The notes beneath the pieces are model-generated. The model searched no databases and had not been told where the DNA came from. It saw nothing but the letters and a program-made list of their open reading frames with translations. A stretch of DNA of 64,000 bases from Lunularia cruciata. Its lineage: Eukaryota; Streptophyta; Marchantiopsida; Lunulariales; Lunulariaceae. Numbering within the stretch: the first letter of the stretch is position 1; every line of letters begins with the position of its first letter. Position numbers and translations under genes: made by a program. Location of the stretch: positions 75,972,931 to 76,036,930 of the forward strand of contig OX419755.1 of NCBI GenBank assembly GCA_948567375.1, read 5' to 3'. Positions 3,306-61,533 of the stretch are shown here, one piece after another.

Positions 3306-3399
3306 AGGAGTTACCAATTAGACTTGCATTTGATTGAGCTTGGTTCACATTTAGAATTGTCTTATTGGACAACCAAAATGGGATTTTTAGTTTAGCGGG

Positions 3400-3518
3400 A
3401 CCTTCAAAGAATGTACAAACAAATTAAGAGTGTCTTATTAGACTTTGGTGCACAACCTCTTATGTTGAAAAGGTTTCAATTGTCAATCTTGGGCTACGGA
3501 AGGACAATTGTAGAGATG
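3400..3518 (+). pseudogene. Retroelement aspartic-protease segment (left part)
   Basis: The plus strand reads VLLDFGAQPLML near 3425, matching the LLDSGAQP active-site loop of Ty3/gypsy proteases. The similarity continues on the far side of the inserted chromovirus at 14661, in a string containing YDVLVGG. This is what identifies the insertion site. Confidence 0.7.
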
Positions 3519-4074
3519 TGTAATACTTCAAGGACAAGCAAACTCTCCAAGAGAGAAAATGCAAGTTTCACCCTCAATACTCCGATGCCTCAAAGGAGCA
3601 CCGTCTCTCTATTTATAGCAAAGAGGATCCCTTCAAAGGAAGTTCCACCCTTGGATCAGATACATGGATTGGTGACCTGTCAGCAAGCTCTATCCTTGGA
3701 TTAGTTGTTTGGATGGGTGACATGTCAATCCTTGTCCTATCTAGTTGGGGAATCTTCCTATAGGGAGCTCAAAATCATGTGGGTGAGGTACCATTGGAAA
3801 TCTCTCAATGAGAAAAATCATAGGGGGGATAAGGCAAGCTCAAACTCCCTAAGAGGAGCAAATATTTACATCTTCAAGGCCTAATTCATCCGTTTAGACC
3901 TATGAAATTGGCTCTAAAGTTTTTAGGCTCTTTTTGGCTTTTGCGCTATTAGTAGAAATACTCTTTTGGTGACATCTTTGTCTGATCTTCCTAGCCCATT
4001 GTATGAAACATCCTTTTAGATGCTACCAAGCCAATTTTCACCTCCAAATAATATGTCTAGCTACTTGTATTATA
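3519..4074 (-). repeat. Chromovirus-family LTR at the left end
   Basis: Begins TGTAATACTTCAAGG and ends GTATTATA, with the same interior as the other LTR copies (for example CTCTTTTGGTGACA near its right end and a TATA-like CTATTTATAGC). Its left flank AGATG is the outer target duplication. It is the leftmost of an array of LTR-derived pieces reaching 4909. Confidence 0.85.
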
Positions 4075-4909
4075 GACCTCTCCCTTTTAAGACGCAATGT
4101 ACCATTGGAAAGTTGTTGCTTAAAAGATTGAACTAACCATAGTGCATTGGTCAAGTTGGCTATTGGCTCTGTAATACTCCAAGGACAAGAGAAGAGAGAA
4201 AACACAGATTGCACACTCAAACATTTGATGCCCCAAAGGAGCACCTTCTCTTTATTATATAGACAAAGAGGATCTCCTCCAAGGAAGCTCCACCATAGGA
4301 TTAGGGACACATATAGGTGACATGTCAGCAAGCTCCACCCTTGGATTACTTACTTGGATGGGTGACATGTCTGGTCTAGGTCTTATCTGGTTGGTCAAAC
4401 AAGCTTTGACCAAAGGGAATCTTTTAGAGAATCTTCCTGTAGGAATCTCAGAATCACATGAGTAAGGTACCGTTGGAAAGCTCTCGACAAGACAACGCAA
4501 GGGGGAGGGAAGACCAGCCTCTCCTCCATTGGGGGGGTAATTTGCACATTTTTTAGGCCTAATTCATCCGTTTAGGCCTCCAAAATTGCCTTCAAAGATT
4601 TCAGGCATATTTCGGTACCTAATCTATTAGTAGAAGTCTCCTTTTGGTGATACCTCTTTCTGATCTATTTAGTCCATCATGTGTAACATCCTTCCAGAAT
4701 GTTACCAAACCAATTCTCACCTTTAAATCATATGTCTAGCTATTGGTTCTAAGGTTCTCAAGTCTATTTCGGTTTCTGCCATATTAGTAGAAGTACTCTT
4801 TTGGTGATACTTCTATCTTATCTATTTTGACCATCATGTATAACATCATTCTAGATGTTACCAAACCTAATTTCACATCTAGATCATCTGGCTAGCTCTT
4901 GGTATTACA
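4075..4909 (-). repeat. LTR pieces split by a second family LTR (4170-4752)
   Basis: The stretch 4170-4752 is a full family LTR starting TGTAATACTCC. Its flanks GGCTC (4165-4169) and GGTTC (4753-4757) look like an imperfect 5-bp duplication, so it appears to be a solo LTR inserted in another LTR. The outer pieces (about 4094-4169 and 4753-4909) keep LTR strings such as GTACCATTGGAAAG and end in GTATTACA. On the minus strand 4909 is where the 3' LTR begins, right after the chromodomain. Confidence 0.75.
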
Positions 4910-4914
4910 GGCTC

Positions 4915-5003
4915 CCATGTTGTCTCATATAGTGGGTACTCTTCCAATGGACCAAATATTCCACATGAGGATGGCGAGTACCACGGATGCATTTTTGGAG
5001 AAT
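4915..5003 (-). pseudogene. Chromodomain end of the chromovirus
   Basis: The minus strand reads VEYLVHWK, the core of retroelement chromodomains (EYLVKWKG). The other side of this domain is at 8853-8900 (EEYEF). The 5008-8852 element lies between them. In chromoviruses this domain targets integration to modified histones. Confidence 0.7.
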
Positions 5004-5007
5004 ACGT

Positions 5008-7219
5008 TGTCGTACTTTTCTTTTCTCTCTCTAGGAACACACGGGGTGCCTAGCTATGGAGACTACAGATTAGAGGCTAGAGGTAAACCCGTAAGGACTT
5101 GACTGAACACGCATGTGACCCTATCACCGGAATCCTCCTTTCTTGTAACTAATATTCTTGCTATCAAGAAGGTAGTACTGTGCAACCTAACCTATCATCA
5201 CAACATGCACTCTTGGTCTGCTGGTCATCACTTCCAGCATTACCAAAGAGAAATACACAGCATTCCTAGAAGGATAATCTAAGCGCAATGCCCACACACC
5301 AATCCCAACCAATTGGGCGTACAAACAGGCATACAAGCACAGAGAGGATCCAATCACAAGAATACGGCAACAACTCTCTGTACTTTGTCAGAAAAGAGCT
5401 TCAAAGCCTTCTTGCTCTATCATCAAGATCATTTCAACCTGTACTCCAAGCCTCCTCCCATCTGTACTCCAGATCTCAACAAATTTCTACTCCATGTAGG
5501 GACTTTCTATGTCTTTTTGATAAGGAAAACTGTGTGCAGCTCATATGAAAATAATTGTTTTTGTATAGCTTGGATTCTAGTGTTCTAGGATTCAATGGAA
5601 ATCATGTGAGATCATCTTTCCAATGATATAAACTAAAATTTAATCAGATCACTAAAAACTCTCCTGACATGCTCTCAAAGTTGGCCAGGTTTTTGCAACT
5701 TTCACCCTAATTTTAAAATCTCCTTTTTAGGGTTTGCTCTTGGTTCTTGGAAAATTTTCCCCAGATTTCTGATTCAAAAATACACTTGATCCTCAAAAAC
5801 ATTCTGGAAACCTGAAACTCCCAATCATAGTCACAAGATAGGAGAATTGATATCCAATCTAGATAAAAGATAAAACTGCTCTACCAAGCTTATGACAGCA
5901 TAATGTTTTGTATCAGATATCACTCTTCACAAACCTGGAGCCAAATAAAAATTTCACAATAGCTAATTGTATTCTTTTCTAAACTCCTGCAATTTTTGGT
6001 AGCCTAATCTAACCCCAATTCCAAGATGCGTATCAATTCTTGAGTTGAGCTAACTTGTGAGCTCTACAAACCCAGGTATACTTGATCCAAGACCTAGAGT
6101 TCTCTATTTGAAGAATTCACATGAAACCTTAATATAAAGGTGAAAACCCTACCCACCAACAACCTTGGAAATTTTTATAAGGAAATTTGAACCACAACTT
6201 GGGGAGTGACCAAAACTCCGAACCTGATCATTAGCTCTTCTCCAACACCTTACATCCGATAAGCTTCAACTTCAATCAATTGGATCTGATTTGAGATTGA
6301 CCCAAAACTAGAATTTATTGTGCTTAGTACTATAAGCACTTTGTCTACTCTCCAATACCACTAATAGATAGTGAAAATGTCTCAAGAAGCTCTCCCAATT
6401 GCCTACTTTGTGCTCCTGGGCATGAATTTTACCCCCCTTGACTCAATTGATCATATCCCTCTCATATTAAGCTTAAATTGTGTGATTTTTGTCTTTGAAT
6501 TGTAGTCTGTCATCTCTTCTTTCCAACATTGCTCTTTGTTCTCCCAATGGCTTCCCAAAACTCCCTTGATAGTCAAAAAACTCCAGTCTTCTCTCTTGGG
6601 ACCCAGTCTCTTCCACATCTGTCATTTATTCTTTTTACTTTTTGACAAATGGACCCCACAACTCCACCTTGAAGCTTATGAGCAAAAATTTAGGCATTCC
6701 CTAACTATAAAAGTACATATATTGGCAATTCCTAGACACTTTCATAAGTAAGCACCGGAAGGACAATAAGATTTAGGTTTCACATCATTGACTCTACAAA
6801 TACCACCCCGAAACATGCCACCAACCAATCTTGTAAGTCGTCACAATGTAAAATCTGAAGCCTGATGAGAAAAGGATTTGGGAGTGGCAGATCAGACGCA
6901 TGGGACATCTCATGCTTGAATGCTTCCTCTAATGCTCTAACACTTGCTCTCTGCTACAACTCTCACTCCAAATGTCTTCCTCCTCCTCAAGACTCCTCAA
7001 CTAAAACACACCCGTCTCTCCACTCACTCTCATCTTTATTCATCAGATCCCTCAAACATGATAAGATTGTAACCCACATGGCCAATCACATACATATACA
7101 AAGATGGCTCACATGGCAACATCTCATCCGTTGGATCTAGCATACAACCTACCCCACTAACGTCAAGATAAACTATTATAAGTCATTTTTTTATGGCCCA
7201 CACAAACCACAACACGACA
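5008..7219 (-). repeat. 3' LTR of the second gypsy element, 2.2 kb
   Basis: Ends are TGTCG and CGACA, a 5-bp inverted pair, with the polypurine tract directly outside. The length of about 2.2 kb is long but seen in some gypsy lineages. No protein is recognisable inside it. Confidence 0.7.
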
Positions 7220-7289
7220 TCAACCCCCTCTAAACTTGTGCATCCTCCGATATGCACCAACTGATCAGACTGTACATTGTAGTCAGATT

Positions 7290-8640
7290 CATACTACCTC
7301 CTTGTCTGATTGATGAGACTCATCATCCTCCAATAGTAGATCCTCATCTTGGAATTGAAAGAGATCCAACTCTTTGTTGACTTCATCCGTGTTCCAACTT
7401 CCTTCTCGCTGTTTGAAGAGCTTGACATGCTTGCCAGCAATTGGAACCTTGAGTTTGCATCCATCCAACTCTCAAAGAGAGTAAGTAGCATTATCCAATG
7501 CACTTACAACCACATACGGTCCAAACCCACGCTTTGAGACTTTTCTCACAATGTTATGTTGGTTATCTAGACTACTATCGTAGAATAGCATCCAATCTCC
7601 TTCTTTAACATCTCTTGGTCTCAAGCGGTGGCATTTGTAAAATCTGTCCTTGTTCCCAAGGTGCACTTTCTTAAGCCTCTCAATTGCAAACTCCACATCC
7701 TCTGGCCTTTTCTGCAATTGGCAAATCCTAAGTGCTAGAGCTCCTCCCTAGATATGTGATCTTCCCAAATCCAAGTGAGCATTTTGCTCCTCAATTGGCA
7801 TAATTGGTTTCTGCCCATGTATCAACTCCGTGGGCATGTAACCAGTAACTGAACTATGAGTGGTGCGATCTGCCCATAGAGCAAAAGGTAAGAGCCTTGG
7901 CCGCTCTTTCACTCTCCCTTGGCATGCTTTCACAATGGCTTTCACAATGGGCGGATGACCTTGCTCACTCTTGGCATTTCCTTCCGGGTTGTAAGCAGTT
8001 GTAAGAGCCAATTTGACTCCACACCTCTCAAAGAAAGCCTTGGCTTCTTGTGTATTCAGCTCTCCTCAATCCGTTGTAATTTTTCCCACACACCCGTATC
8101 TACAAACCACGTCCTCTAACAGAAATCTGCAAATTCCCTCACTGGTTTTGGTCCTCAAGGCTTGTCCTTCCACCTGGTTAGACAAATCCTCTCGTGCCAA
8201 AACCAAGTATCGCATCTGCCATATCCTAACCGGCATAGTACCCAGATCCACCACCCACTTGAAATGCATTGCAAGCGGATAGGTAGGATGTAATCCATCT
8301 CTATGTCAAATATCTGAGTATGTTTGGCAGATTTTACACGTCTCCACAAACCAAACTACATCTCTGTACATATTGTGCCACCAATACCTTTCCTTCAGTT
8401 TGGTAAAGGTAGCATAAATACCCCTATATCCAGCCTATAAGCTCTCATGGAATTCTTTGTTAGTAGCTCCCTTGTCTCCTCCTTGCACACAACGCATTGT
8501 GGAGGCTCGCCACTCCATCTAGCTTTCTTCTACAAATAACTCCCTTCCAAAAGTTAGTTGTATGCTTTCTGCCTCAATTGTTTGTACCAAGCGTCATTCC
8601 ATTTTGTTGCTTGGTCAAGGAGCAAAGGTAACGCTCGATA
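7290..8640 (-). pseudogene. Integrase segment of the second gypsy element
   Basis: The minus strand carries an integrase zinc-binding part near 8340-8400 (ERYWWHNMY, then ETCKICQ), core strings LVLAREDLSNQVEG (about 8165-8220) and LTTAYNPEGNAKSEQGHP (about 7950-8010), then ADRTTHSSVTGYMPTELIHG (about 7810-7870). The last run is typical of gypsy integrases just before their C-terminal domain. The remnant is broken. Confidence 0.85.
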
Positions 8641-8645
8641 TCCAA

Positions 8646-8852
8646 CCATTCTCCACTCGCCCTCATCTTTATTCATCAAAGCCCTCAAACATGATAAGAT
8701 TATAACCCACATGGCCAATCACATACATGTACATAGATGGCTCACATGGCAACATCTCATCCGTTGGATCTAGCATACAACCTACCCCACTAATGTGAAG
8801 ATAAATTATGATAAGTCACTTTTTTACGGCCCACGCAAACCACAACAGGACA
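8646..8852 (-). repeat. 5' LTR piece of the second gypsy element
   Basis: Matches 7016-7219 along nearly its whole length, including GATGGCTCACATGGCAACAT and CATCCGTTGGATCTAGCATA. Its right edge starts TGTCCTGTTG on the minus strand, the same terminus as the long LTR. Confidence 0.8.
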
Positions 8853-9392
8853 ATGTTTGAACTCATACTCCTCTACCTCATCAACAAAGACAAGGTCTAC
8901 TTTCTTGGAAGGAAGAGAAGTGGGATGGCGGGGAGTGTATCAGCTTAATAAGGAAACATGAAACACCGAGTGGATCTTCATATGTGGCGGTAGCTCAAGG
9001 TGATAAGCCATACGACACTGATGCAACAAAGGATGGAGAAAGGTCCAATGAAACAAGGTCTAAGCTTATGAGAACTAACAAACTTGAGGTTGGTGGTTGA
9101 CAGCCAAACTTGATCTCCCACATTAAACTTCATGTGTTGGCGGTGTGCATTTGCATATTGCTTTTGCTAATTTTGAGCAATTTGCAACATGTGCTTGGCG
9201 TTCTTCACACTCTATTGCATTCTAGAAGCAAAAGTGATAATAGCGTCAACCTTGGTAGCCATCATACGGACCTTCATCAGGCTTGAAGGTGTGAAAGGAT
9301 GCTCTCCATACATGAGGAAGAACAGTTTGACTTGTGTAGAGGTATTCACTAAATTGTTGTAAGCAAATTCTACTAATAGGAGTAAGGTGTCC
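8853..9392 (-). pseudogene. Chromovirus integrase end and start of chromodomain
   Basis: Reading the minus strand from 9392: LLLLVEFAYNN and FLMYGEHPFTPSS (integrase core end), then MKFNVGDQVWL and IHSVFHVSLLS (C-terminal domain) and EEYEF (chromodomain start). It follows on from the integrase segment beyond the solo LTR. Confidence 0.85.
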
Positions 9393-10084
9393 TGTGAGCC
9401 GGCCTGTCTCTCACTCAGGATGAACCTCTGATGGCTATTATGGTAACGCACCATGGACTAAGAAGGCAAAGAACCTGAACTCCATCATACTCCTCCAAGG
9501 CTAACACTCCAAGACTCAAGACATTGCTCACTAGAGAACTCAATGAGAGAGAGATAGTTGCAAATGAAAAGATGATGAGTACCTCCTCACCCCTTGTTTA
9601 TATACTTGTAAAATAGTTACGTACCAAAGTTACTAATTACCGGAGTAACTCAAGTTACTAGACTAAAAGTCAAGTCAAGTCAAAAAGTAGAAAGGAATAT
9701 CCATTCACATGGGCATATTCCCCTAAGCATGTGGTCTTATCTTGACCCAACCACTAAGTCAAGGATTCCTTCACATGGGCTATCCTTGGACTAAAGAAGA
9801 ATCCAAAACAAAAAGGCTTGCGGGCCCAAGAGTTCTCAACTCTTTCCTCAAAGCCAAACACCTAGGAATAATACCAAGTCAACACACTAAAATCCAAAAT
9901 AGTGGTGCTCATCTTTTCTACTTCGTCTAAAGTAAGGTCCCATCTATCTTAGCTATGACTAACTTTAGCTAACCATGACTAATATAGAACCATCCTTTAT
10001 CTCTATATAAATAATATCTCTTAAGTACTTGTAATACCAAGCTAAATATCACAATACCACACACATGCACAAATGGGTGTTACA
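9393..10084 (-). repeat. Solo LTR inside the chromovirus integrase
   Basis: On the minus strand it starts TGTAACACCC and ends GGCTCACA. The same four bases GTCC flank it (plus strand 9389-9392 and 10085-10088). Integrase similarity stops at one edge and resumes at the other. A TATA-like TATTATTTATATAGAG lies about 80 bp from its start. No internal coding part is present, so recombination to a solo LTR is the simplest reading. Confidence 0.8.
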
Positions 10085-12300
10085 GTCCCAACTCTCTTGC
10101 TCATCCAAAGCAAAGCCCCAAACCATGTCCTCAATAGTGCAATTTTCTTGCTCTATTTTTCCATTGGTCTTTGGATGGTGAGCTATGGATATGGCCAATT
10201 TGGTTTTGAAGAACACAAAGAGTGTTCCCCAAAACAAACTAGTGAATTGAGTGCCTCTATTATGATGAGCACTAGAGACATGCCATGATAGGAAAAGGCT
10301 ACATCTAAGTACAATTGTGCTAGTTGCGGAGCAATCACATCCTTGGTGGTAGGATGCACATGATTCATTTTGTTGAGTCGGTCTACAAAGACTATGATGG
10401 AGTCAAACCCAAAGGTAGTCTTGGGCAATTCACAAACTAGATCCATGCTTACCTATTCCCAACGTTGTGTAGGAGTGGAGAGAGGTTGGAGTAGTCCTAT
10501 GGGAGCTTGATTAGAAGCCTTATTTTTTTGACAAAGTAGGTAGCTCCAAACATATTCCATCACATCATTACTCATCTTGGGCCAATAACAATGGCATTTG
10601 ACCGCATCCAAGGTCATGTTCCCTCCAACATGACCTGCAATGGCAGAATCATGACATTCTGCTAGGATGGCGGTTCTTATATCTGTATCATCTAGGATCC
10701 ATAACCTACCATCATTGAAGGTGAGTCCTTGGGTGCCGGTGATGCCTTTGGATGATTGAGCACCTACAATTTGTGGATCAATTTTTGTAGCAATAAGAAT
10801 CTTGGGCCAAAATTCAAGGTTCATCTTGATTTCTACCACCAAATTGTTTGCCATTGGCATTTGGGTGAATACATCTTTTTGCTTTTTGAATACATCTACA
10901 AGTTGCTTTCCACATATCTTGGAGAACTCCTTGACAAATCAACTATAAAAGCCCATCAATCCCAAGAAACTCTTGAGTTGAGTCTGATCTTCTAGAGCAT
11001 TCCATTTTTGAATGACCTTTATTTTATCTATTAACACTTGGATACCCTTTGCACTTACTCTACGCCTTAAGTAGTCTACTTCAGATTTGCCAAACTCGCA
11101 CTTTGAGATTTTGGCATACAATTGATTTTGTTGGAAAATCTAGAGGACTTCTTGTAGATGTTGCTTGTGCTCTATCAACGTCCTACTATAGACTAAGATG
11201 TCATCAAGAAGCATGATAATAAATTTACCCAAGTACGGACAAAATATGTCATTCATCAAACTCTCATGAAAGTGGCTGGAGCATTGGTGAGGCCAAACGG
11301 CATCACCAAGTACTCAAAGTGACCATACTTTGTTCAAAAGGCCATTTTTGTATGTCTCTTCCACAATTTTAATTTGGTTGTAACCGCTCTGCAAATTGAG
11401 TGTGGTGAAGTGCCTTTCCTAATTTAGTTAATCAGACAAGTCATCCATACAAGGTAATGGATATTTTTTCTTCATTGTTTGTTGATTCAGTCCCTGGTAA
11501 TCAATGCACATGCGCATTGTTCCATCCTTCTTCTTCACAAAAAATTCAAGGGCCCTACATGGTGATACGTTGGGTTGGATAAACCTCTTCTACAACATAT
11601 CCTTGATTTGAACCTTACACTCCTCCAACTCATAAGGTGATAGTCAATATGGGGCCTTACAAGGAGGCGTCTTCCTAAGAAGTATCTCAATTGTATGATC
11701 TACTCTCCTTTTTGGTGGTAAACTTGTGGGTAATTCATCTGAAAAGACATCTTGGAACTCATTGACCACATCTTTCAATTTCTCAAGAATTTTTCCATTA
11801 TGTTGGGCACTTTGGACTTGTCTTATTAAACCCATGAAACATCTATTGTCTTACTAGTAGATGTGGTCCTTATGATATACAAAGGTAGCTCTTGCTTTTG
11901 TGATCTTCCTTTAACCCCAAATATCATCCATTGACTAGTTTTCACTACTTTCTTTCTCCAATCCACAGTATGGTTGTAGTTCTCCATCCACGGCATACCT
12001 AAGATCACATCATAACAAGCTAGTGGTATCACTCACCACTTGATTACCTCTTAATACCCTCCTAAAAAAAAGTATTACCTTTCTAGGTAATGACTCAATC
12101 CTCTTTGTTTGACCATTAGATAACTCTACTTTGTCCTTCTCATCCTTCTTTAGTTCCATCTCCAACCTTATTGCAACAAAGTGTGACAAGATATTCTCTA
12201 TTGCCCTAAGATCTATCAACACTCTCATCGGATTGCCTTCTAGCAGTCTATTTACAACAATTAATTGTGAGTTTATCTTCCTTCCTCTACACACTTGTCT
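10085..12300 (-). pseudogene. Chromovirus pol segments
   Basis: On the minus strand, from high to low coordinates: protease-like segment (about 12010-12290), linker to reverse transcriptase ending in VDHTIEI (about 11690), reverse transcriptase with MPFGLTNAPATFM (about 11270-11310) and LLDDILVYS (about 11190-11215), integrase zinc-binding part with HVGGNMTLDAVKCHCYWPKM (about 10570-10630), and core with MDLVCELPKT and HPKTNGKIEQEN. The order is that of Ty3/gypsy. It is a broken fossil. Confidence 0.88.
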
Positions 12301-13461
12301 TATTCCTTCCCTTGCTTTTACTCTTCTTCACCAAGCCAATAGGGCCACAAGGTACATTTATTGGTGATCTTCATTTTCCAATGTGGTTTCTATATCCTCC
12401 TCTTCAATTTGTCTCCTCATGTGGTTTAGAGATGGCTTGTATGGCGGCTAAGGGCCTTTAAGATGACAAGCACAACAATTGTTGGTTATGTGCCCAATTT
12501 GGCCACAATTGTAACATCATCATTGTTCTAATTAAGCCCCTTCTCCCCATGGGACTTCTTCTCTCCTTTCTTTGACCTATCCTATTCTCCTTGGAGAGGT
12601 CTTGCTCCTTGGTCTTGGAATCATATGTTGCCCAATTCCATAGGAACTAGTCCACCAAAATGGTGTGTCTCAACCGGATAGTACTGCATTGGTGTTATCA
12701 CTTCACCTCCTCCAAGTGCCCCTACTATTCTTTGAGCACAAGCAAGGGCTTCAAAAACCATACAAGGATTTTTCACCATTACCACTTGACAAATCTACTC
12801 TTTTTTTTCTCTCTTGAAATTATCAAGAGTTTCAGCTGGACTCATATCTGTTATCACAACCTGCAGATCCAAAAATGCCTCCACTTACTCTTGTATGCTA
12901 TTCTTTTGCTTCAATCCCCAGAGTATGGTTCAAGCCATTTGCACAAAATCCACAGATTAGAATTCTTGGGCAGCCCTTCTTGCATGGCTGTCCAAGTGAT
13001 GTCTCTTCCTTCTACTAGCAATGATTGTTCCCAAGAGTTATACCATGTGCGGACTTTATCAATCAAGTACCCGCACGCAAACACACCTGTAGATGATTAG
13101 TGGTCTCTATTGTAAACAATCAAAGGTATCAATTCATTCTTGAAATCCAATTTTCCACTACTTCCATGGAATGCTATCTCTTGTAAGGCTTGATCTTGCA
13201 CATCTTTTTCATTTGTAGTAACAATGTGGCTTGGTTGTTGATTGGAATCGATGTAATCGGTATGCATAACTCTCCAGGTACTTTGATTGTTGGTGTTGGT
13301 TTTTGAGATGACTTCCCTTCTTGCATTACTCAATCATTCTTCATAGTATATATTTGATTTTGCAATTCCTCAATGGTAATCTTGATTTCCCAAAACTTGT
13401 TCAACATCCCCTGCATTCCTTGCATTCCTTGCATCAACTCTTGCAACTGCGGATCCATGAT
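12301..13461 (-). pseudogene. Chromovirus gag segment with CCHC knuckle
   Basis: The minus strand begins with MDPQLQELMQGMQGM near 13459, just inside the leader. Near its end it carries the perfect zinc knuckle CYNCGQIGHITNNC (12463-12504; CX2CX4HX4C), which binds RNA in retroelement Gag proteins. It is broken. Confidence 0.8.
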
Positions 13462-14069
13462 TGCTACACATGGCCAATGTTCATTTGTTACTTCCTACTT
13501 CAATAGAGGGTTAGAATGATCACTTGGGAGAGAGCACAAACTATGTGGACTACCATTGAGACCTCATAGACTATCACTCATTGATAATACCTCTCACCAA
13601 AATTGTGGACTACAAAATCCCAGAACATCACTTTTGGTCTAACTACATAATAGATTTCTACTTGTGTGTTAAAAGGGTGAGGATTTGGTACATTTAGATC
13701 CATAACATCATAATAGAATGTAGATTGTCAAATCCCACTCTTTATCATATACCACCAATGGTAGAATCACCAAGTTTGGTAAATTCATCACTCTGTACAT
13801 GAATTCTACTCCAAAGTGATAAACAAGAGATTCTCTCATTTGCTCACGCTAAATGTACATAATCTTGATGTGGAATGGGTTCAAGAATGGGTAGCTAGGT
13901 GCAAGAAATTATCCTCTTGGTGCTTCCATCCCATTTGCTCTCTAAAACACTTCCCAAGTCTAGTGACTGCATTATGTTTTCTCCTCTCAAATGACTGAGT
14001 TTCAATAGCTCGTATTCTTCCAAGAGGGGTGATCCACTCTCTTGGATTAAAACACCTACTATGATACCA
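13462..14069 (-). other. Chromovirus leader and primer-binding site
   Basis: Untranslated leader between LTR and gag, also present at 2142-2725. Next to the LTR the minus strand reads TGGTATCATAG, close to the initiator-Met tRNA complement TGGTATCAGAG. This sets the direction of the element. Confidence 0.8.
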
Positions 14070-14655
14070 TTATAATACTCCAAGGACACAAGAACTCTCC
14101 AAGAGAGACACAAGATAGAAAACACAAGTTTCACCCTCAATACTCCAATGCCCTAAAGGAGCACCTTCTCTTTATTATATAGCAAAGAGAATAATCTTAA
14201 AGGAAACTCCAGCCTTGGATCACATACATGGATTGGTGACCTATCAGCAAGCTCCATCCTTGGATTAGTTTTCTGGATGGGTGACATGTCAATCCTTGTC
14301 CTATCTAGTTGGTACAAAGGGAATTTTTAGTGAATCTTCCTATAGGGAGCTAAGAATCATGTGGGTGAGTTACCATTGGAAAGCTCTCAACAAGGTGAAT
14401 CATAAAAGGGAGAAAGCAAGCCTAACCCCTTGAGGGAAAAGAATACTTCTATTTTTTAAGCCTAATTCATGTATTTAAGCCTCCAAAATTAGCTCTAAAG
14501 TTTTCAGGCTATTTCAAGCTTCTGCCCTATTAGTAGAAGTACTCTTTTGGTGACACCTCTATTTGATCTTTGTAGCCCATTTTACACAAAATCCTTTTAG
14601 ATCTTACCAAGCTAATTTTCACATCTAGATAATATGTTTAGCTACTTGTATTACA
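14070..14655 (-). repeat. 5' LTR of the chromovirus
   Basis: About 586 bp, with termini TTATAATAC (family start TGTAATAC) and GTATTACA. It contains a TATA-like CTTTATTATATAGC near 14170. Its right flank AGATG equals the left flank of 3519. Confidence 0.88.
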
Positions 14656-14660
14656 AGATG

Positions 14661-14870
14661 TCCATTTCAAATCTAGACATCTTTAGGGAGTGGTTCTATA
14701 TAGTACATCACATATGGGGAGCTCATTGTCCAGATTCAATTTGATCATCTGATTAATAGCTCTATGGTGACAGCTCAAGACATTGAAATAGTAGCAAAGT
14801 TATATGATGTGCTAGTTGGTGGAGAAGTGATATACTCCATGGGTTTCAACATTGACTATTAGGTGGAGAT
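14661..14870 (+). pseudogene. Protease continuation of the methyltransferase-bearing element
   Basis: The plus strand reads AKLYDVLVGGEVIYSMGFN at about 14788-14845. This is the hydrophobic core of the protease begun at 3400-3518, on the far side of the inserted chromovirus. Confidence 0.65.
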
Positions 14871-15179
14871 AGCTTCCTATTGGCTAGGTTTGCAATTAGA
14901 TGAGGATATGTATGTTGCCTAAAAGTGTGCTTTAGTAGTGGTAAACTTGGCTCACTATAGTCAAGGACCGTGCCATCAATTTTAGCTTTTAGTGGTTTTG
15001 TTACTTTGTCTGGTGACTTATTTGCAGAGAATCCCCATGCAAAGGATACCTTTATACTAGAGGAGATCATTGAGATTTGGAGTACAAGTAGGGTTTTTCC
15101 ATCCACATTGGATGTTCTATTGTTGAGTTTTGAGGAAGCATTGCAATAGCATGTGGATTAGTTGGTGCAATAAGCTTGA

Positions 15180-16420
15180 AGTGGAGCCTTTATATCACCA
15201 AGAGACCAATGTGAGGATGAGTCTCTAGAATCTATTACCTTGTCACCTTTGGACACCACATTTATTTCTTGGAAGTATCCAAGAAACAAGTATCCAATAA
15301 CAAAGTATGCCTATTGGAGTTGTTTGGTGGAATCAACACTAGACTAACTATAGTGTTGCATGTACTTGTATGTGGAGAGAGATGCAATAGCTAGGTAAGT
15401 CTCTCTACATTACATGGCACACTTGGCCTATTGGCATTTTGAATCATTACCAATATCAACAGTCAAGGATTACCAAAAGACCTTGCTAGTAGACATTTCT
15501 TTATTGGGTGCATAAGATTTGGAGAGATATGATCTTATTTGTTTGGTGATTTCAAGATGGTCATGTCAAGGACATACCCATTCAATCTAAGGTTAAGGTC
15601 TACAAAATTCTCATTTTGGTGTGGTTTAGGAGATGTTACATATACTATGACATCTCTAGGTTCATCACGTTGTTTCTATAGCCTACATTTGGAGAACATC
15701 TCTTTGATGGGTGATTCTTGCACATGGGTGGTGGTGAGTACAGATCAAGTCCATTCTTGGATGGGACATATCATGTTGTTGGGTGTAGCCAGAGTTAGAC
15801 CATGGACTCATCATCTTCATCTTTGGTAGACAAACCTCTTACCTAACAGTTTTTACAACATGCTTACATGGGATTCACTGACTAGCCTACCTTATTGTTA
15901 ATGATATTTTAGATGTTGGTTGCTAATCTCAAACAATGGTAGTGATTGATAGGCTACTTATGGTATTGGTAAATCTTGTTAGACAGCCCAAAGCCACTTT
16001 ACCCACACTCATGAGTTTCATAGGCTCCCATGCTTTCTAAGAAGGAGGTCTTGGACTTGTTTAGAACTGATAGTTATAATAATTAGTGGAGCCCAATGCC
16101 AATGAGAGAGAGAGAGAGCAAGCAATGGGTTTTTGTAGTGGTATTACCACCATTTTAGCAATGTTAGAGGCATTTAGGCATCAAAGAATGGACTTGAACT
16201 ATTTGACTTGGATTGTGAGCCTTGGATTGGTTGAGCAATGTAGGATGTGGTTGATAGATATCACCACTTGGACACTTGTGAGCTATGTTCCTATTGAGAC
16301 AATTCAAGCACTTGTTGGGGATGATGGACCAAGTTTGCATGGTATTCTTAGGACACAATTAGGGAGTACTAGTGAGAGTGGTCTACATGGGATATATCTA
16401 GGTGAGCATGGTCTACTTGG
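15180..16420 (+). pseudogene. Cytosine-5 DNA methyltransferase domain of a Ty3/gypsy element
   Basis: C5-methyltransferases add a methyl group from S-adenosylmethionine to cytosine in DNA. The plus strand shows most of the family motifs, in the right order: LLELFGGIN (motif I, cofactor binding, about 15311-15337), YVERDAIAR (motif II, about 15369-15395), WSCQGH (motif IV, the catalytic-cysteine loop, 15558-15575), LENISLMGD (motif VI, about 15689-15715), ARVRPW (motif VIII, about 15788) and ERERE followed by AMGF (motif IX/X, about 16104-16133). The segment ends with DLNYLTWIVSLGL. It lies between protease and integrase parts of the same element, so it was part of that element's polyprotein. 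It is a decayed copy with several disruptions and is not a host methyltransferase gene: no introns, no chromatin-targeting domains. Confidence 0.85.
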
Positions 16421-16439
16421 GTTACTCTCTTGGTCTACT

Positions 16440-16960
16440 TGAGATGTAGCTAGAGGACATGTGGAGCTTGCAACCAAAGCAAAGGGAGTTCTTTGCTTTG
16501 AGGTTGGAGATTCTAGTGGTAAGGTTATGGCATTATTTCTTCCAAGGGCCCAAAGTAGTAACCAGTTGGTACATCTTCCACTTTGACATCAATTATAGAT
16601 GATACTTGAGAGCCAAACATTGGAGGAGAAAGATAAAGAGTTTGGAGCTTTTTTAGGAGCTACACAATGTTGTGGGTGGCACAATTTGTGCCAATGAGAG
16701 AAACCATGTCCTTTTGCAAGCTAGGAGGTTTAGATTGGAGGGTAGATATCATCTTCATGTATGAGAAGATAGTAGAGTGTGAGTAGTACTTCTTCTATCT
16801 TAGAGACCACAATTTGTATGACATGCTCATGAGGAGCTAGGACATTTTAGAGTAAAGTAGACATATAGCATACTCCAAAGTCATTATTGGTGGTGTGGTA
16901 TGCAGATCAATATACAAAATTTTATTGCCTAAGGTATGTTTTTTTTATTGATTTAGAGTG
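16440..16960 (+). pseudogene. Integrase zinc-binding part of the methyltransferase-bearing element
   Basis: The plus strand shows HEELGHFRVK (about 16828-16857) followed by a YWWCGMQ string (about 16885), the HHCC-type domain that precedes the integrase core. Upstream is a short linker joined directly to the methyltransferase end. The 4.1-kb insertion begins at 16961. Confidence 0.75.
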
Positions 16961-19900
16961 TGATAACCCAATGTTAACATATTAATAATAAAATGGTAAG
17001 AATGAGTCAATCCCATGAGTATACATGTCAAAATTGGCTAGAAGTGAAATGAAAGTGTCATAAAATTTAGTTCATTTATCGTTTGCTATTTAACCTCTTG
17101 GGAAAAAACCACTCCTAGTATGAGGGTAGAGGAACCCACTATGATACTCTATAAAAATCTGAAAATATCCTAAATCACTCTCAAAACTACATGTAATGAA
17201 ACTTACCTTTAAGGTGATGATGCACTTTGCCCTAAAGCCTCCAACCTTGATATCATGTTGTAACTTTCCTTGAAGGTATGACAGCAAAGGGGCTGAACTA
17301 GCAAGTGAATGTCCTTGAGTTTTGATTCCATGTTATTGATGGCACTTAGGACTAATCTAATCCATCATTGGGCAATTCTTCACATTTAGACTCCAAATTG
17401 TCACCCTGCCTCCTAGATTCAGCAACTATAATTCTTTAGCAAGATTCATACCTCTACACTGACAAGGGCACTTAAAGCCAGATACTATGTGAATACAAAT
17501 TGATCATAGTAGACTTCAATGCAATTCAAAGTTGTCTGGAAAATTAGACTTATTCATTATTGGTCCCAAAGCCTTATGTACAGTTTCCTATTGCTACTCC
17601 ACTTTGCCCTAAAGGGTCTCCAATGGCTAAGCAGGTTCCTTGCCAAACCTAACTACTCTATTGCCACCAATTATGGTTTTAATTTCTATCTTGTCCTACT
17701 CTTAATTCCCTAATGAGACTTGGTCAAGTGACATAGAAGCTATTAATTCTTCCACTAAGCATGCACTACAAGTAATGAATGTCTACCTAATCTACCACAC
17801 CAAAGGGTTCTTTGGCCAGAACTTGGCCATATGCCATTCATCTTGGAAATTGTATTGGGTTGAAGCCTTCAATCTAGTTCCTACTTTAAAATTTTAGAAA
17901 GAATATCCACATCTAAAAGGATGTATTGGGAGTTCTTGCAAGAAAGAGCTAAGTCCTATGTATAGTTGCTAGAAAAGATGAAAGAATATACACTAGTTTA
18001 ACACTATGGTTCCTTCTAATATATTGGTTGTCTTTAGCTCTATACTCTATTAGGAAGAACATCCTTTTCCCTTTGAGTGGTGAAAGGACTTCTTTGGTTT
18101 GCTCCTTCTAATCTGCAATCATCAGCAAGTACAAGTTCTTCACTTTGTTGAACTTTTGGTCCACATGTCTCCAAAGTTGGAGATCAAGTTGGTCTATCAA
18201 TTCTTCTTTGTACTTCTTCTCCTTCAACCTTTGGGCTTGAAACCACAGTTTGTGAACTTGGCAATTGGTTTTTCTCCCTTTGACTTCTTCTTGGAGCATC
18301 TCCACAAATTATGCTTGGACTTCTTCCACTTGCTAGAGTTCCTCCTTCTTCTCTTCAATCTGCAGGCACTTTGCTTGAAATCCAACTTCTTGTGCAAATG
18401 CTCTTATTTGGCCTCTTTCTCCATGGCCAAAGTCAATTCCTTAGCTTGGGCCTCCAACTATGCTACTACTTCCTTCCAATATTCAAGCATCTACAAGTCC
18501 AAAGTTGCATTCTGAACCGTGGTGTTATTTACTTCTTGACGCCTGCTCTTTACTTCTTATTCTTAAGCTTGGAGCTGATCTTAGTAGTTGACCTCCTTCT
18601 CCTTCTTCTCCATTTGCAACTTCCCTAACTCTAATTGCAATCTGCCCGATTCCTTCTCTTGACCTTGGAGCACGGTGGCCAAACAAGCCTTCTACTTTGA
18701 CTCGTTGAGCACTTCTTATATCAGGGAGTTTACCTTCTTTGCTTCTCCCTTGTAGCAATCTTGACTGTGGATCACTTCCTCCTAGAGCTTACTTTCTTAG
18801 GCTTTCCTTTCTTTGTGCATCCTCTACACCAAGGTGACGCAATCTACAATCTCTAGACACTCATGCTTGTACTAGGGTAGCAAAAGTTCCATCAATTGCA
18901 AAACCAACCCCACCAAATAAATAATGAAGTGGGCTTGGTTGGTAATGGTTTGGCTAAGTCTTTCCTCCTTGTCTTGCAAGATTTGGACTTATGCTTCTTC
19001 TGCAATCTACACTAGAGTCTCTTCTTCCTCAACATATATGTCTTCTTTAGATTTGGCCTTGTCTTTGTCCTTGTCTTTGGGCTGAATTGCATTTGGAACT
19101 TTGCGCTGAATTTTATCTCCTTCTTCTAGGTGCTTTTCCTTCTTCTCCAAAGATGGGGATCAAAGAGTGGGCTTCAAGGATTTGAACTCTAGGCCAATCA
19201 CCTCCTCTTTGGTTTCATTGTCCTTCTTGTCATCCTCTTTTGCTCCTTCAAAGTCTTTTGAATACTAGGAGTTTACGGGCAGATTGTGCATCCTGAAATT
19301 TTTCTTCTTCTCCATGGTCCTCCTCCTCCAATTGCAAAGTGAAAGACCCTTCTTCTTCTTCTTCTATTTCTTCCTTCAAACCAACTTCTTCCTCCTCTAT
19401 AGTTTTGGAGGCTATGTTGATGATCAGAGGGTTCTTCTTTGCTTGCTTCTTTGTTGGAATAGCAATTTGGGCCAATGGTGCTTGCTTCTTCTTTGGCTTG
19501 GTGTTCACCACCTCTTCTTCCATAGGCATAAACTTGATTGTTTGGGCAAATTTTGCATCTGCCTCTTGATATTTCTTGATCATACACTTTCCCTTGGATT
19601 GGGAAGCAAAGTAATTCTCAAAAGGACAATGATTCAAGAATATCATGTTCCTCCTCATTCACCAAGTTGAGACCCATGTAGAAATGGTCAAAAAGAGAGC
19701 TAGCTAAGTGGCTCCTATCTCATCTAAGAAATCATGATGAATGGTTTGGGCCTATAAATAGAACATGCAAGCCCAATTTACCAGCTCACCTTCATACATC
19801 TTATGAAAGAAGATGGCTTGGGATTGGTTAAGTAAGTTGTCCATTTATGATGAAACAACTTCATAATTTCTTCTACAATTGATAATTGAGTTGGGTCTTT

Positions 19901-21082
19901 ATAATTGAGAGCTTTCCAACTATTATTGCGATTGCAAGGTTCCCCAAAAGTGTCCTTGATCTCTTGGGTCAACTCTTGATCATAAAACTTAGTGTCAATT
20001 GTCATTTCCCTTGTTAGGCCCACAATCGAACCAAGGATATTCCTCCAATTTCTTTTGTCCGTCACATGAGGTTCCTCTCAGGTGCTCGCTACTTCTCACC
20101 TTCCAGCTCATGGTCTCATGGATGATCTTGAAGTTGGATGCATCTCAATCCAAGAGCAAGAATTCCATATGCTTGCTTTGAATTATCTCTCTCCTAGAAT
20201 ACACTACCCATGCATTCATTCCTGGGCTTTGAAGGATTGCTTTGGGGACCTTCCTCATGGTTTTTGAACAAATATCATTCTCTCAAAGATTATGGAAGGG
20301 AAGCAATGGGTGGTTCAGCTTTGAAGACTAGAAAACTACTCCAACAAAGGCTCAAATTTGGGATTGAATACACTTAATCAATCTCTTGCAATTCAAAAAG
20401 TGAGAATGGCCATTCTCTACTTTGTTTTATAGGAAAAGTCCTCAATCATTCTTTGGTCAAAAAGTGGTTGGATCATCCTTGTTCCTTGTCACACAATCAA
20501 TATCAAATATTACTTGCACATGCAAACTATCACTCTCCCCCAATGGTTCAAGTTCCAATGTAGGCATAGGGTCAAATGCCAACAATCCTCCTCAGAGTGC
20601 AAACCACTCTTCTTGATTTGGAACGGTTGTCCTTAAATTTGTTAGCAATGCATCTAAATTAGTGTATGGTGCTTGCTATGTGTTGGGTCCGGAAAGAAAT
20701 GCAATAGTGTGAGCTCATTTGGCTTAGTGCAACCAGGCAGAATGACATTCTATATGGATACCTTGTGGCCAAAGTCCTTCTCTCTCAAACCATGTGTCTT
20801 TGAGCACCCCTTGCTCCCAAGTTGGTTTCTTACATTCTTCCTCCAAGTGTTCCTCTGATCCCAACTCTATCATTCAGATTATTGGCTCTAGAGTCACAAC
20901 TCAAAAAATGCACTATTTCCAAAAAAATTTATCTTATTGGTAGAACAAACTAGACTTCCTTACTAACAAAGTTGAAATTAATCAAAAAAAATTAACACAA
21001 AATAGTGGGCACCACATTGAGCATTATTTAATGCTCCCATGCCATAATTGCACTCATTACCTATCATGGGGTTAGGTTATCA
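16961..21082 (-). mobile_element. Inserted element with TGATAACC / GGTTATCA ends
   Basis: The left edge is TGATAACCCAATG and the right edge is GGTTAGGTTATCA, an 8-bp inverted pair of the LTR type (TG...CA). It lies between the zinc-binding and core parts of the outer integrase. I found no long direct repeat between its two ends and no pol motif, so it may be a non-autonomous LTR derivative or some other terminal-inverted-repeat element. On the minus strand it holds a lysine- and glutamate-rich coding remnant. A target duplication could not be recognised. It is broken and its age is unclear. Confidence 0.5.
18100..20065 (-). pseudogene. Lysine/glutamate-rich coding remnant, unknown family
   Basis: Not recognised. 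Minus-strand frames read MTDKRNWRNILGSIVGLTR near the 5' end (20065), then FMPMEEEVVNTKPKKKQAPL and VGLKEEIEEEEEGSF (about 19330-19540), then charged stretches such as EKKYKEELIDQLDLQLWRH (about 18165-18220). Such charged, probably coiled-coil proteins occur as Gag-like products of some plant retroelements, but I see no zinc knuckle, protease or polymerase. It belongs to the 16961-21082 insertion and is decayed. Confidence 0.4.
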
Positions 21083-21300
21083 CTAAAGTTTGGACTTTTG
21101 TGGACCTTTAGCATTGATAGTGAAACATCATCGCTATGTTTTGGTTATAGTGGAGTACTTCTCCAAGTGGATTAAGTTGGTGGTATTTCTTGACAAGTCC
21201 AATGCAAGTATAGATTACTTGTTCTTGGCTTGGATTCATAGTCATTTTGGTGCACAAGCCGAGGTCTTGATTGATCAGGGTACATAGTTCTATGATTGCA
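21083..21300 (+). pseudogene. Integrase core of the methyltransferase-bearing element
   Basis: The plus strand reads SLDFCGPLALIVKHHRYVLV then VEYFSKWIKL and AEVLIDQG, the first half of a gypsy integrase core (the DF-GPL and D-QG strings hold catalytic acids). Similarity stops at about 21300, where an inverted repeat begins. Confidence 0.8.
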
Positions 21301-46744: not shown

Positions 46745-48094
46745 TTAATATCCACAGAGACTGAATTCACATTTTCCTGGCCCATATCTAGTATAAGGAC
46801 ACGGATTCCCACACTTTCCACAATTGAAAGCATTGGACTTCAAGTCCACACATCTACCAGCGCAGCAAGAGTAACCAAAGCTGCAAGCCTTCCCGCATCT
46901 TCCGCAATTGTTTTCATCGGTTATCAAGTTCGTACATATGCCAGAACAGCATGTAACGCCCTCCCCAGATTTCAAACAGAAGAATGGATTATTGGTGCAG
47001 GTGTTGGTCCTTGGAGGAGGAGGAGGTGAACGAATTGGAGGAGGAGGAGGAGCTCTGTTAGGAGTGCCTGACGAATCATTCTTCGGTGGGGGAGGAGGAG
47101 AAGCCTTTGGTGGGGGTGGAGGAGAAGCTTTGGGTGGGGGGGGAGGAGAAGCTTTGGGTGGGGGAGGAGGAGAAGCCTTCGGTGGTGGTGGAGATGGGTA
47201 CGAGTATTTCGGTGGTGGGGGAGGAGAAGCTTTGGGTGGGGGAGGAGGAGAAGCTTTGGGTGGGGGTGGAGGAGAAGCTTTGGGTGGGGGAGGAGGAGAA
47301 GCCTTTGGTGGGGGTGGAGGAGAAGCTTTGGGTGGGGGAGGAGGAGAAGCTTTGGGTGGGGGAGGAGGAGAAGCCTTCGGTGGTGGTGGAGATGGGTACG
47401 AGTATTTTGGTGGTGGGGGAGGAGAAGCCTTTGGTGGGGGAGGAGGAGAAGCTTTGGGTGGGGGAGGAGGAGAAGCCTTTGGTGGGGGTGGAGGAGAAGC
47501 CTTTGGTGGGGGTGGAGGAGAAGCTTTGGGTGGGGGAGGGGGAGAAGCATTTGGTGGTGGGGGAGAAGCATTTGGTGGTGGGGGAGGAGAAGCCTTGGGT
47601 GGGGGTGGAGGAGAAGCTTTGGGTGGGGGAGGAGGAGAAGCCTTCGGTGGTGGTGGAGATGGGTGCGAGTACATTGGTGGTGGGGGTGGAGAAGTCTTGG
47701 GTGGGGGAGGAGGAGAAGCATTTGGTGGTGGGGGAGGAGAAGCCTTGGGTGGAGGAGGAGAAGCATTTGGTGGTGGGGGAGGAGAAGCCTTGGGTGGAGG
47801 AGGAGAAGCCTTTGGTGGGGGAGGAGGAGAAGCCTTTGGTGGTGGTGGAGGAGAAGCATTGGGAGGGGGAGGAGGAGAAGCTTTTGGTGGGGGAGGAGAA
47901 GCCTTCGGGGGAGGAGGAGCTTGAGAACCGTAGGTCAATAGAGACCTAGTGCCAAATCGCCCCTCTTGAATAGAATCCTCCTGCGCCATGTCCACAGCTC
48001 CTGTAGCTGCCACTCCTACCATCAAAAGCGCAAATGTAGCTGCTAAACCCAGTAACCTTGCTCGATTGCTCGAGCTCATATTAGACCTCGTCAT
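46745..48094 (-). CDS. Chimeric extensin with C-terminal Stig1 domain
   Basis: Single-exon, 449-residue secreted wall protein. Residues 12-33 form a hydrophobic signal peptide (LLGLAATFALLMVGVAATGA). Residues about 59-350 are Pro-rich modules of the form SPPPPPKA/NA. Two copies of KYSYPSPPPP and one MYSHPSPPPP interrupt them. Ser-Pro(n) blocks are hydroxylated and arabinosylated in extensins, and YSY-type motifs can cross-link. Residues 366-449 are a Stig1 domain with 16 cysteines (CTNNPFFC, CCSGIC, NCGRCGKAC, CCAGRC, NCGKCGNPC). Stig1 proteins are small secreted Cys-rich proteins, known from stigma exudate and lipid or receptor binding. The fusion suggests a wall-anchored Cys-rich domain. 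The start fits well (GCCATG); a second ATG five codons later would also keep the signal peptide. Repeat number probably varies between individuals. Confidence 0.93.
   Translation of the reverse strand: MTRSNMSSSNRARLLGLAATFALLMVGVAATGAVDMAQEDSIQEGRFGTRSLLTYGSQAPPPPKASPPPPKASPPPPPNASPPPPPKASPPPPPKASPPPPKASPPPPPNASPPPPKASPPPPPNASPPPPPKTSPPPPPMYSHPSPPPPKASPPPPPKASPPPPPKASPPPPPNASPPPPNASPPPPPKASPPPPPKASPPPPPKASPPPPPKASPPPPPKASPPPPPKYSYPSPPPPKASPPPPPKASPPPPPKASPPPPPKASPPPPPKASPPPPPKASPPPPPKASPPPPPKYSYPSPPPPKASPPPPPKASPPPPPKASPPPPPKASPPPPPKNDSSGTPNRAPPPPPIRSPPPPPRTNTCTNNPFFCLKSGEGVTCCSGICTNLITDENNCGRCGKACSFGYSCCAGRCVDLKSNAFNCGKCGNPCPYTRYGPGKCEFSLCGY
47045..47920 (-). repeat. G-rich coding minisatellite of the extensin
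   Basis: Units of about 21-24 bp of the type GGTGGGGGAGGAGGAGAAGC repeat for almost 900 bp on the plus strand. This is the template strand of the extensin gene, so runs of four to seven G lie in the transcribed strand. Units are imperfect but locally identical, as expected from unequal exchange. Confidence 0.93.
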
Positions 48095-60300: not shown

Positions 60301-61533
60301 CGGGATGCCAAGGAGTTGATGGAGAAGAACTCCGCAGCGTTGAGCACAGCAGGTGCGCCCTCCAAGATGGATCTGATTTCCCACTTGCTTCGGACGAAAT
60401 CCAATGGGGTACTCATAGTGCGGACGTCCGAGAAAGTAATCTCGTTTGTTGTTCTGTTGTCCGGGAACAATTCTCTATCTTCGAAGTAGATAGACTGTCG
60501 AGTAAACATTGGTGTCTGGAAATCGTCCAACATGTATAGTATCGAGAGGAAGCTGGTGGTTTCTCGGGTGTTGAGCATGTCTCTTTCGCTCAATCCTATC
60601 TGATCTAGCTGGAAGCTGACTGCGGGCTGAACTGACCAGCCTGTGTGCATAACAGACACTGGTGGGTCAGACACAGAGGGAACTCGTGTGATATTAATCT
60701 CGTCGAATACCCTGCTCGAGATGTCATTTCTTACAAGCCAAATGCGGTCGAAACGATCGTCAGGATACCTGCTTCAATGCCCACGGAGCGTGACTGATTA
60801 GCTCCAAAGCCGTTCCCATTTTTCCCTCACATTTCGTCGTTATAAACTTGCTTTGATGATTATTTTCGTGGCAACTATGGATGAAAAGCATCGGTATGAT
60901 ACAGAAAGTCACGTTCGAGAGAGTTTACCTTAAAGAACTCTGGCCCTCGGAGCCCCCACAGTCGATTCTACTCAGTAAGGATAGGAAGTTTCGTCCCATT
61001 AACAACTCGCCATATATGGTGTCTTTCAGTGGTCGTAACTCTAAGGACGATATGAATGGGTCACCCTCTCCAATGTTGATGAGACAAAAGTACATGTTGT
61101 TGCTCTGAGCAGTCAAAATACCTTCTTTCGTGAGCGTATCTGCAGACATGTAGACTGTGATCCAGAGAGTAGTATCCACGGATATATTGAAACGAAGAAA
61201 ACTGCTGACCTGGGAATTGTCCGGATGAAACATAGCTCGAAGAAGATATGTTTCTCGTTCCTTCGCCGGCAGAATGTAGCAGTTTTTCGTTCTAGAGGTG
61301 GCTGTGGGGAAATATCTTACAGTTTGCAGTGCTCGAGAGGGGAACCCAGCGCTGCATGTCTTAAGCAGCTGGTCAGTTCCTGTTTTAATGTACTCATCAT
61401 CCATGACCCAGTTAATTCCCGTCATCTCATCAGTGTAATTTTCTTGGCTTCCACAATCAATGCTAATAAATCCTGCACATGTACAAAACACAATCACCTC
61501 AACAAGTTTGAGAACCTTTCCACATAATTGCAT
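57318..61533 (-). CDS. Malectin-like/LRR receptor-like protein without kinase (RLP4-like)
   Basis: Cell-surface receptor-like protein. Exons (minus): 61533-60929, 60768-60284, 60174-60048, 58889-58821, 58606-58535, 58240-58172, 57798-57318. All are GT-AG and in phase, giving 635 residues. A malectin-like ectodomain begins FISIDCGSQENYTDE and includes RYPDDRFDRIW; malectin-like domains resemble sugar-binding folds. Then WTGDPCLPVPWDWILCDY, the conserved link to the LRRs, and three LRRs (GLVGDIPVFCDLEKLEIL; NNFTGNIPFNLANISYL; NNLSGEVPIAF). A transmembrane helix (57615-57686) is followed by an acidic tail of about 95 residues ending in a stop. The LRR exons of 69-72 bp are typical. The closest relatives I know are plant malectin/LRR kinases such as At1g67720 and kinase-less RLP4-like proteins. 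Here no kinase exon is seen. The N-terminus is uncertain: GTGCAG at 61473-61478 could be a splice acceptor with the signal-peptide exon further upstream. One LRR exon found in relatives was not located. Confidence 0.88.

Follow-up and report, generated by a model that had tools for sequence, protein, structure and literature searches.

The 64,000-nt stretch of DNA analysed here (referred to as the window) contains the decayed remains of what is, with a probability that we put at about 85%, a Ty3/gypsy long terminal repeat (LTR) retrotransposon in which the protease (PR) frame continued into a DNMT3-type cytosine-5 (C5) DNA methyltransferase, followed by reverse transcriptase (RT), RNase H (RH) and integrase (IN). 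On this reading a land-plant genome once hosted a methyltransferase-bearing retrotransposon, and such elements are not confined to algae; relatives with open reading frames are present in liverworts and peat moss.

Since the frames of the remnant are broken, a stop-masked, frame-stitched read of positions 14704-16929 was built and used to search approximately 5.8 billion proteins, with 7992 candidates being scored. Thirteen matches were returned, the best of which, to Marchantia proteins, reached E=5.7e-102; the best three showed 41% identity over 69-73% of the read. PF00145, the C5-methyltransferase family, is carried by 11 of the 13, whereas P0012 carries a PHD finger and P0013 has no precomputed domain. 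The stitching was guided by motifs, and is hence biased; two checks free of stitching agree with the homology that it revealed. Plain tblastn of the 13 matches onto the unaltered window gave best E values per protein of 1.3e-17 to 1.6e-73, within 14629-16496, and the best high-scoring segment pairs of four relatives scored 76.6-201 bits on the real DNA as opposed to at most 28.1 bits in 200 dinucleotide shuffles. Similarly, frameshift-aware alignment to P0005, the protein nearest to the window, scored 692, compared with 30-36 in three mononucleotide shuffles. The motifs do lie in two frames amid many stops, as might be expected of chance matches in A+T-rich DNA, but the stitched-read search, the shuffle-controlled tblastn and the alignment refute this explanation, the likelihood of which is negligible.

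The motif strings named in the original prediction fall within 15314-16133 of the plus strand, spread over two reading frames (Table 1; the numbering of motifs I-X follows what we take to be the usual scheme). Alignment to relatives recovers the order I, II, IV, VI, VIII, IX, X, although the string ARVRPW, offered previously as motif VIII, is not the conserved motif. Motif VIII itself is degraded, the window reading HHLHLW, with RxR gone, where relatives have, for example, ARVGSRAHRPRLWW (P0017). In motif IV the Cys is kept and its neighbour altered, with SC in the window versus PC in relatives. In frameshift-aware alignment to P0005, 207 of 441 residues matched and the window showed 11 frameshifts and 15 stops; for P0002 the identities numbered 228 of 521, with 8 frameshifts and 19 stops. 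This indicates that the window copy cannot be a working gene; that candidate is ruled out.

The methyltransferase remnant belongs to one element that has been split by two nested insertions (Table 1). The protease and gypsy integrase claimed as its neighbours are indeed arranged in that order on the plus strand, but only the C-terminal part of the protease adjoins; the active-site part (DFG) lies 11 kb upstream, having been split off by a nested LTR element (element A). The latter is 11.1 kb in length, with LTRs at 3519-c.4074 and c.14071-14655, and is bounded by a perfect 5-bp target-site duplication (TSD), AGATG, at 3514-3518 and 14656-14660. Its flanks are two parts of one protease, and the matches of relatives abut at the join (P0003 635-662 and 664-744). 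The LTR pair differs by a Kimura two-parameter (K2P) distance of 0.199 (460 of 555 compared sites identical), indicating that the methyltransferase element is older still. On the 5' side the methyltransferase element is cut by a further element, B, with a 3' LTR that ends at ~3306. Downstream, the expected integrase profile was found in the window frames as Integrase_H2C2 (E 2.1e-8), and the catalytic core was identified by tblastn, with ORF2 of contig L014 matching at 21027-21290 (E 1.5e-19) and P0034 at 21069-21290 (62% identity, E 2.3e-22), such that both the H2C2 and rve parts are represented. The end of the integrase was not found past ~21297 in the window, tblastn revealed no PHD finger in the window, and a search of the second insertion for an LTR pair found none.

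Table 1. Features of the window. Positions are numbered over the whole 64,000-nt window; all parts of the methyltransferase element are on the plus strand.
Feature	Position	Strand	Basis or remark
Surviving 5' part: pre-protease and protease active-site region (LLDFGAQPLML, 3435-3467)	3311..3518	+	tblastn of P0003, P0006, P0034; ends in TSD AGATG, 3514-3518
Nested LTR retrotransposon A, inserted in protease	3519..14655	+	Self-blastn, TSD, empty site; separate from methyltransferase element
Protease C-terminal part and linker to methyltransferase (CPFQI, 14659; DVLVGG, 14806)	14656..14958	+	tblastn; starts with second TSD copy
Decayed DNMT3-type C5-methyltransferase with N-terminal linker and ORF1-like tail; core ~15314-16260	14961..16409	+	Stitched-read search, tblastn, frameshift-aware alignment
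Motif I, LELFGGI	from 15314	+	
Motif II, YLYVERD	15363-15383	+	
Motif IV, WSCQGH	15558-15575	+	
Motif VI, LENI	from 15689	+	
ARVRPW	from 15788	+	Not conserved motif VIII
Motif IX, NEREREQAMGF	16101-16133	+	
Motif X-like, QRMDLN	16182-16199	+	
End of ORF1-like tail and junction of inferred internal deletion	16410..16662	+	Without RT/RH match; order taken from relatives
Integrase N-terminal part with H2C2 zinc-binding domain (Pfam, 16801-16929)	16663..16958	+	Pfam E 2.1e-8; tblastn L014 ORF2 566-654, E 1.05e-9
Second nested insertion, TG...CA ends, flanks TAGAG/TTGAG (4 of 5 bases alike)	16959..21016		No LTR pair found
Integrase catalytic core, truncated	21022..21297	+	tblastn; end read by eye
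LTR family locations	3519-14655, 2723-3306, 4171-4909, 27046-27665 (-)		Self-blastn
Host gene, proline-rich protein with STIG1 domain	46745..48094	-	PF04885, E 9.8e-16; not part of element
Host gene piece, malectin-like ectodomain	60925..61533	-	PF12819, E 2e-42; not part of element

PR and IN are in the Ty3/gypsy order in the window, without RT and RH; the complete order PR-RT-RH-IN is present in L014. The open frames of this contig encode PR-DNMT3 (first) and RT-RH-IN-PHD (second), with Pfam identifying DNA_methylase in the former and RVT_1, RNase H, H2C2, rve and PHD in the latter. The contig (1-9215) has 57 identical bases at both ends, over which the first frame extends. RT and RH follow the methyltransferase also in P0006 and P0019. 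When 181 sequences were scanned with the L014 domains, the methyltransferase was detected in 180, and in 72 of these it shares its protein with one or more element domains, in agreement with the claim that the enzyme belongs to a Ty3/gypsy element whose linkage recurs in other copies; many of the remaining sequences are short. Protease precedes methyltransferase in all 41 proteins with both domains, RNase H does so in 19 of 23, methyltransferase and integrase share one protein in 31 cases, and a PHD finger was found in 24 of the 181.

The relatives were identified in two further searches. That conducted with the methyltransferase part of P0003 returned 61 proteins, those with names being from Marchantia polymorpha (15), Calypogeia (1), Sphagnum fallax (1) and a Spirochaetia metagenome-assembled genome (1). 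A profile search returned 224 matches; among the 120 listed, 12 have organism names, all of them bryophytes (Calypogeia 5, M. polymorpha 3, Sphagnum troendelagicum 2, M. paleacea 1, Riccia 1), with no vascular plant or alga named. P0005 is 82% identical to the S. fallax protein P0034. L014, which looks like a complete LTR element of a eukaryote, is listed as part of an uncultured Synechococcales (cyanobacterial) metagenome-assembled genome and is most likely stray eukaryotic DNA; P0064 is likewise listed under Spirochaetia. In the metagenomic gypsy polyproteins P0035-P0063 the methyltransferase comes after RNase H and before integrase, and most have a PHD finger following the integrase; in P0062 the methyltransferase precedes RT.

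A number of observations weigh against the assignment of the window segment to a methyltransferase-bearing gypsy element. A PF00145 match anticipated on the window's own frames did not materialise, there being none on the stop-masked frames even at E 1, indicating that the window copy is a decayed descendant as opposed to an enzyme, and that homology rests on the relatives. Among these, Pfam detected PF00145 in seven of eight scanned (P0001-P0007; not P0012), in three of five others (P0025, P0035 and P0044; not P0034 or P0058) and in ORF1 of L014. Additionally, tblastn gave no match to RT or RNase H in 16410-16662, the place expected from relatives, and gag was not found in the window copy. 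Neither LTRs nor a TSD of the element's own were seen in the window self-comparison, element B having interrupted the 5' part close to the edge of the window and the 3' part having been lost after 21297. The window copy alone does not, therefore, show a full element; we infer that RT and RNase H were lost from it through internal deletion. Even among the relatives Pfam detects gag and protease poorly, with Retrotrans_gag falling below cut-off in P0001, P0003 and P0007, Marchantia copies among them, and Asp_protease_2 in P0025 and L014. The gag of L014 was assigned from its position and from a motif that by eye resembles a zinc knuckle, and zf-CCHC was called by Pfam in P0025. Decayed methyltransferase elements of this kind evidently escape plain profile scans.

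As judged from the sequence and predicted fold of its relatives, the enzyme is of DNMT3 type. In the matches listed, the relatives resemble DNMT3 more closely than they do other C5 enzymes, CMT and MET1/DNMT1 being absent from those matches and from the trees; the Foldseek rows shown hold no CMT or DNMT1, which does not exclude these types. Two trees were constructed, both without plant host DNMT3, CMT and MET1, and in both the base or residue composition of the window departs from that of the alignment. The first drew on 64 proteins and the window, from which 47 rows (280-345 residues) were used, without P0034 and P0001 and with a domain cut that omitted motif I. The second comprised 25 chosen element enzymes, the window, human DNMT3A and nine outgroup rows, with P0062 and DNMT3A on long branches. 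Outgroup sequences were sought in IMG/VR, where a scan with P0005 found no relative and one with profile A2 found 13 loci, matching over 40-142 residues, that were treated as phage-type C5 enzymes. Nine of these and a Streptomyces locus (L015) were extracted, nine of the ten passing the length filter (L004 was dropped); the frames were cut mechanically and are uncurated, L001 alone having been viewed as an ORF.

In the trees the window groups with protease-methyltransferase proteins of Marchantia and Calypogeia and with others that are partly Sphagnum-like; support for its pairing with P0005 was 88/92 in the first tree, and the second tree did not resolve it. The proposed placement with element-borne enzymes is thus borne out among the rows included. 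It could be argued that the segment is a processed or translocated copy of a host DNMT3 that landed by chance in an unrelated gypsy element, given that the enzyme is DNMT3-like and that plant DNMT3 genes exist outside angiosperms (available text of PMC6453930). However, the protease runs directly into the methyltransferase, an order shared by 41 of 41 proteins, and DUF3444, carried at the C-terminus of plant host DNMT3s (same source), is not listed by Pfam for the plus-strand frames at 10-20 kb or for the scanned relatives. With the tree grouping, albeit in the absence of plant host DNMT3 from the rows, these data led to rejection of a host copy as very improbable.

A further question is whether related gypsy elements captured DNMT3 twice, once in the PR/RT slot and once in the RNase H/integrase slot, as opposed to a single capture that later moved. 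The two positions seen in relatives, after protease in 41/41 and after RNase H in 19/23, favour two captures, as does the PR-type rows forming one group in the second tree (94/81, not starred). Conversely, a PHD finger follows the integrase in both types, and the 25 element enzymes, the window and human DNMT3A separate together from the phage-type enzymes (100/100). Since the inner place of the long-branched DNMT3A among the element enzymes is open, a single capture is not shown either, and two captures are a real, if somewhat doubtful, prospect. We would advance only speculatively the broader idea that a de novo-type DNA methyltransferase stayed with one gypsy lineage as streptophytes evolved and so reached several groups of land plants, the enzyme switching between two coding slots and being paired with a chromatin reader, the integrase PHD finger. 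If true, this would be a mobile element both choosing and writing the epigenetic state of its own insertion sites.

With regard to function, one of several conceivable schemes is tentatively preferred. In an intact element the methyltransferase would be made within a Gag-PR-MTase polyprotein, which implies Gag-like amounts and packaging with the particle. The element protease would then free the enzyme, which could methylate the element's own cDNA or chromatin at the integration site, perhaps with the PHD finger that ends the integrase of relatives steering integration to particular histone tails. Immediate methylation might let the new copy sit quietly, with less host damage and less loss. 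Loss of CpG and CHG from the remnant fits past heavy methylation: at 14661-16500 observed/expected ratios are 0.029 for CpG, 0.22 for CAG and 0.13 for CTG, and only two CG dinucleotides occur in the 2.3 kb of 14661-16958, in comparison to CpG ratios of 0.65-0.69 in the 33-64 kb part of the window. As a signature of self-marking, however, this strong loss was rejected, since it is common to the neighbouring repeats (CpG is 0.00 in the 3' LTR of element A, 14071-14655) and says nothing special about self-marking.

Alternatively, the enzyme could feasibly serve as a counter-defence, titrating or misdirecting host methylation factors, or methylating host or competitor sequences. Purifying selection on the DNMT domains of published elements points to some benefit to the element (available text of PMC5890265), and the PHD reader of relatives could direct the enzyme elsewhere in chromatin; we consider this role unlikely. 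Less probable again is a role other than DNA marking, as a scaffold in particle assembly or as an RNA methyltransferase that targets element RNA. The enzyme's location in the first frame, together with the protease (L014, P0003), would suit such a role, and RNA methylation has been raised as a possibility for LINE-borne enzymes (PMC5890265, available text). Nevertheless, the best sequence and fold match is DNMT3, a DNA enzyme, and not DNMT2, and the aligned relatives (A1, A2) show little or no variation at the motif IV Cys and the motif VI Glu-Asn.

The surroundings of the element are a very old, slowly cleared repeat bed. Self-comparison revealed an LTR family with ends TGTAATAC...TTGTATTACA that is represented at least five times, by whole or partial copies that are 70-84% alike, some of them nested in each other. 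A further gypsy RT and integrase remnant lies inside element A on the minus strand (10369-11781 and 7796-8512). Starting just past the break in the integrase core are inverted repeat arms (48 nt, 88%) that lie ~1.15 kb apart (21320-22566), and this unit is possibly a DNA transposon that truncated the integrase. No tRNA or Rfam match was found in the window. The land-plant host named in the original prediction is supported by the Stig1 and malectin-like genes in the window, which we take to mark land plants; the STIG1-domain protein is preceded by a long tandem PPPPPKAS repeat.

In the literature surveyed, methyltransferase-carrying retrotransposons come from dinoflagellates and a charophyte, and the precedents that the original prediction names in both are published (de Mendoza et al. 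2018, PMC5890265; cited here from the available text). KnitGypsy-Dnmt3 of Klebsormidium nitens resembles the window family in having the Ty3/gypsy domain set, an intronless DNMT3-related enzyme inside the coding region, and several copies. It differs, by the published description, in its charophyte host, its DIRS-like repeats and the location of the enzyme in the Pol ORF, as opposed to directly after the protease. 'PHD' is not mentioned in the main text of that paper, as available, and no Klebsormidium-named protein was among the 61 matches of the P0003 search or the 120 of 224 profile matches listed. SymbioDIRS-Dnmt3 and SymbioLINE-Dnmt of dinoflagellates are likewise retrotransposons with captured DNMTs, but are DIRS and LINE elements and not LTR gypsy; the captures are described in the paper as independent. 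No land-plant report of a methyltransferase-carrying gypsy element was found in the open-access literature, in searches of which only some were directed at land plants, subscription papers and preprints being mostly outside this scope, such that a published case may exist. In the available main text of a reference classification of plant LTR elements (PMC6317226), 'methyltransferase' and 'PHD' are absent. The Tat-lineage elements described there, like the DNMT3 elements, carry an extra domain whose slot, PR/RT or RH/IN, depends on the clade, although in their case the domain is an RNase H. Among metagenomic sequences, the RT-RH-DNMT3-IN-PHD polyproteins (P0035, P0044, P0055 and others) share a homologous enzyme (P0035-P0063 being 29-42% identical to the P0003 region), a gypsy integrase and in most a PHD finger, but have the enzyme between RNase H and integrase. 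The bryophyte proteins (Marchantia Mp_8g17980 and Mp_4g09160, Calypogeia, Sphagnum) belong to the same family, with protease then DNMT3; they are open frames, several marked partial and mostly hypothetical or unnamed products, whereas the window copy is a pseudogene. The window element is, then, of a known kind, a gypsy DNMT3 capture, with a range of hosts that is new and a slot that probably differs, and its several open-frame relatives in genetically tractable Marchantia would offer a direct test of why an element should carry the kind of enzyme with which hosts silence it.
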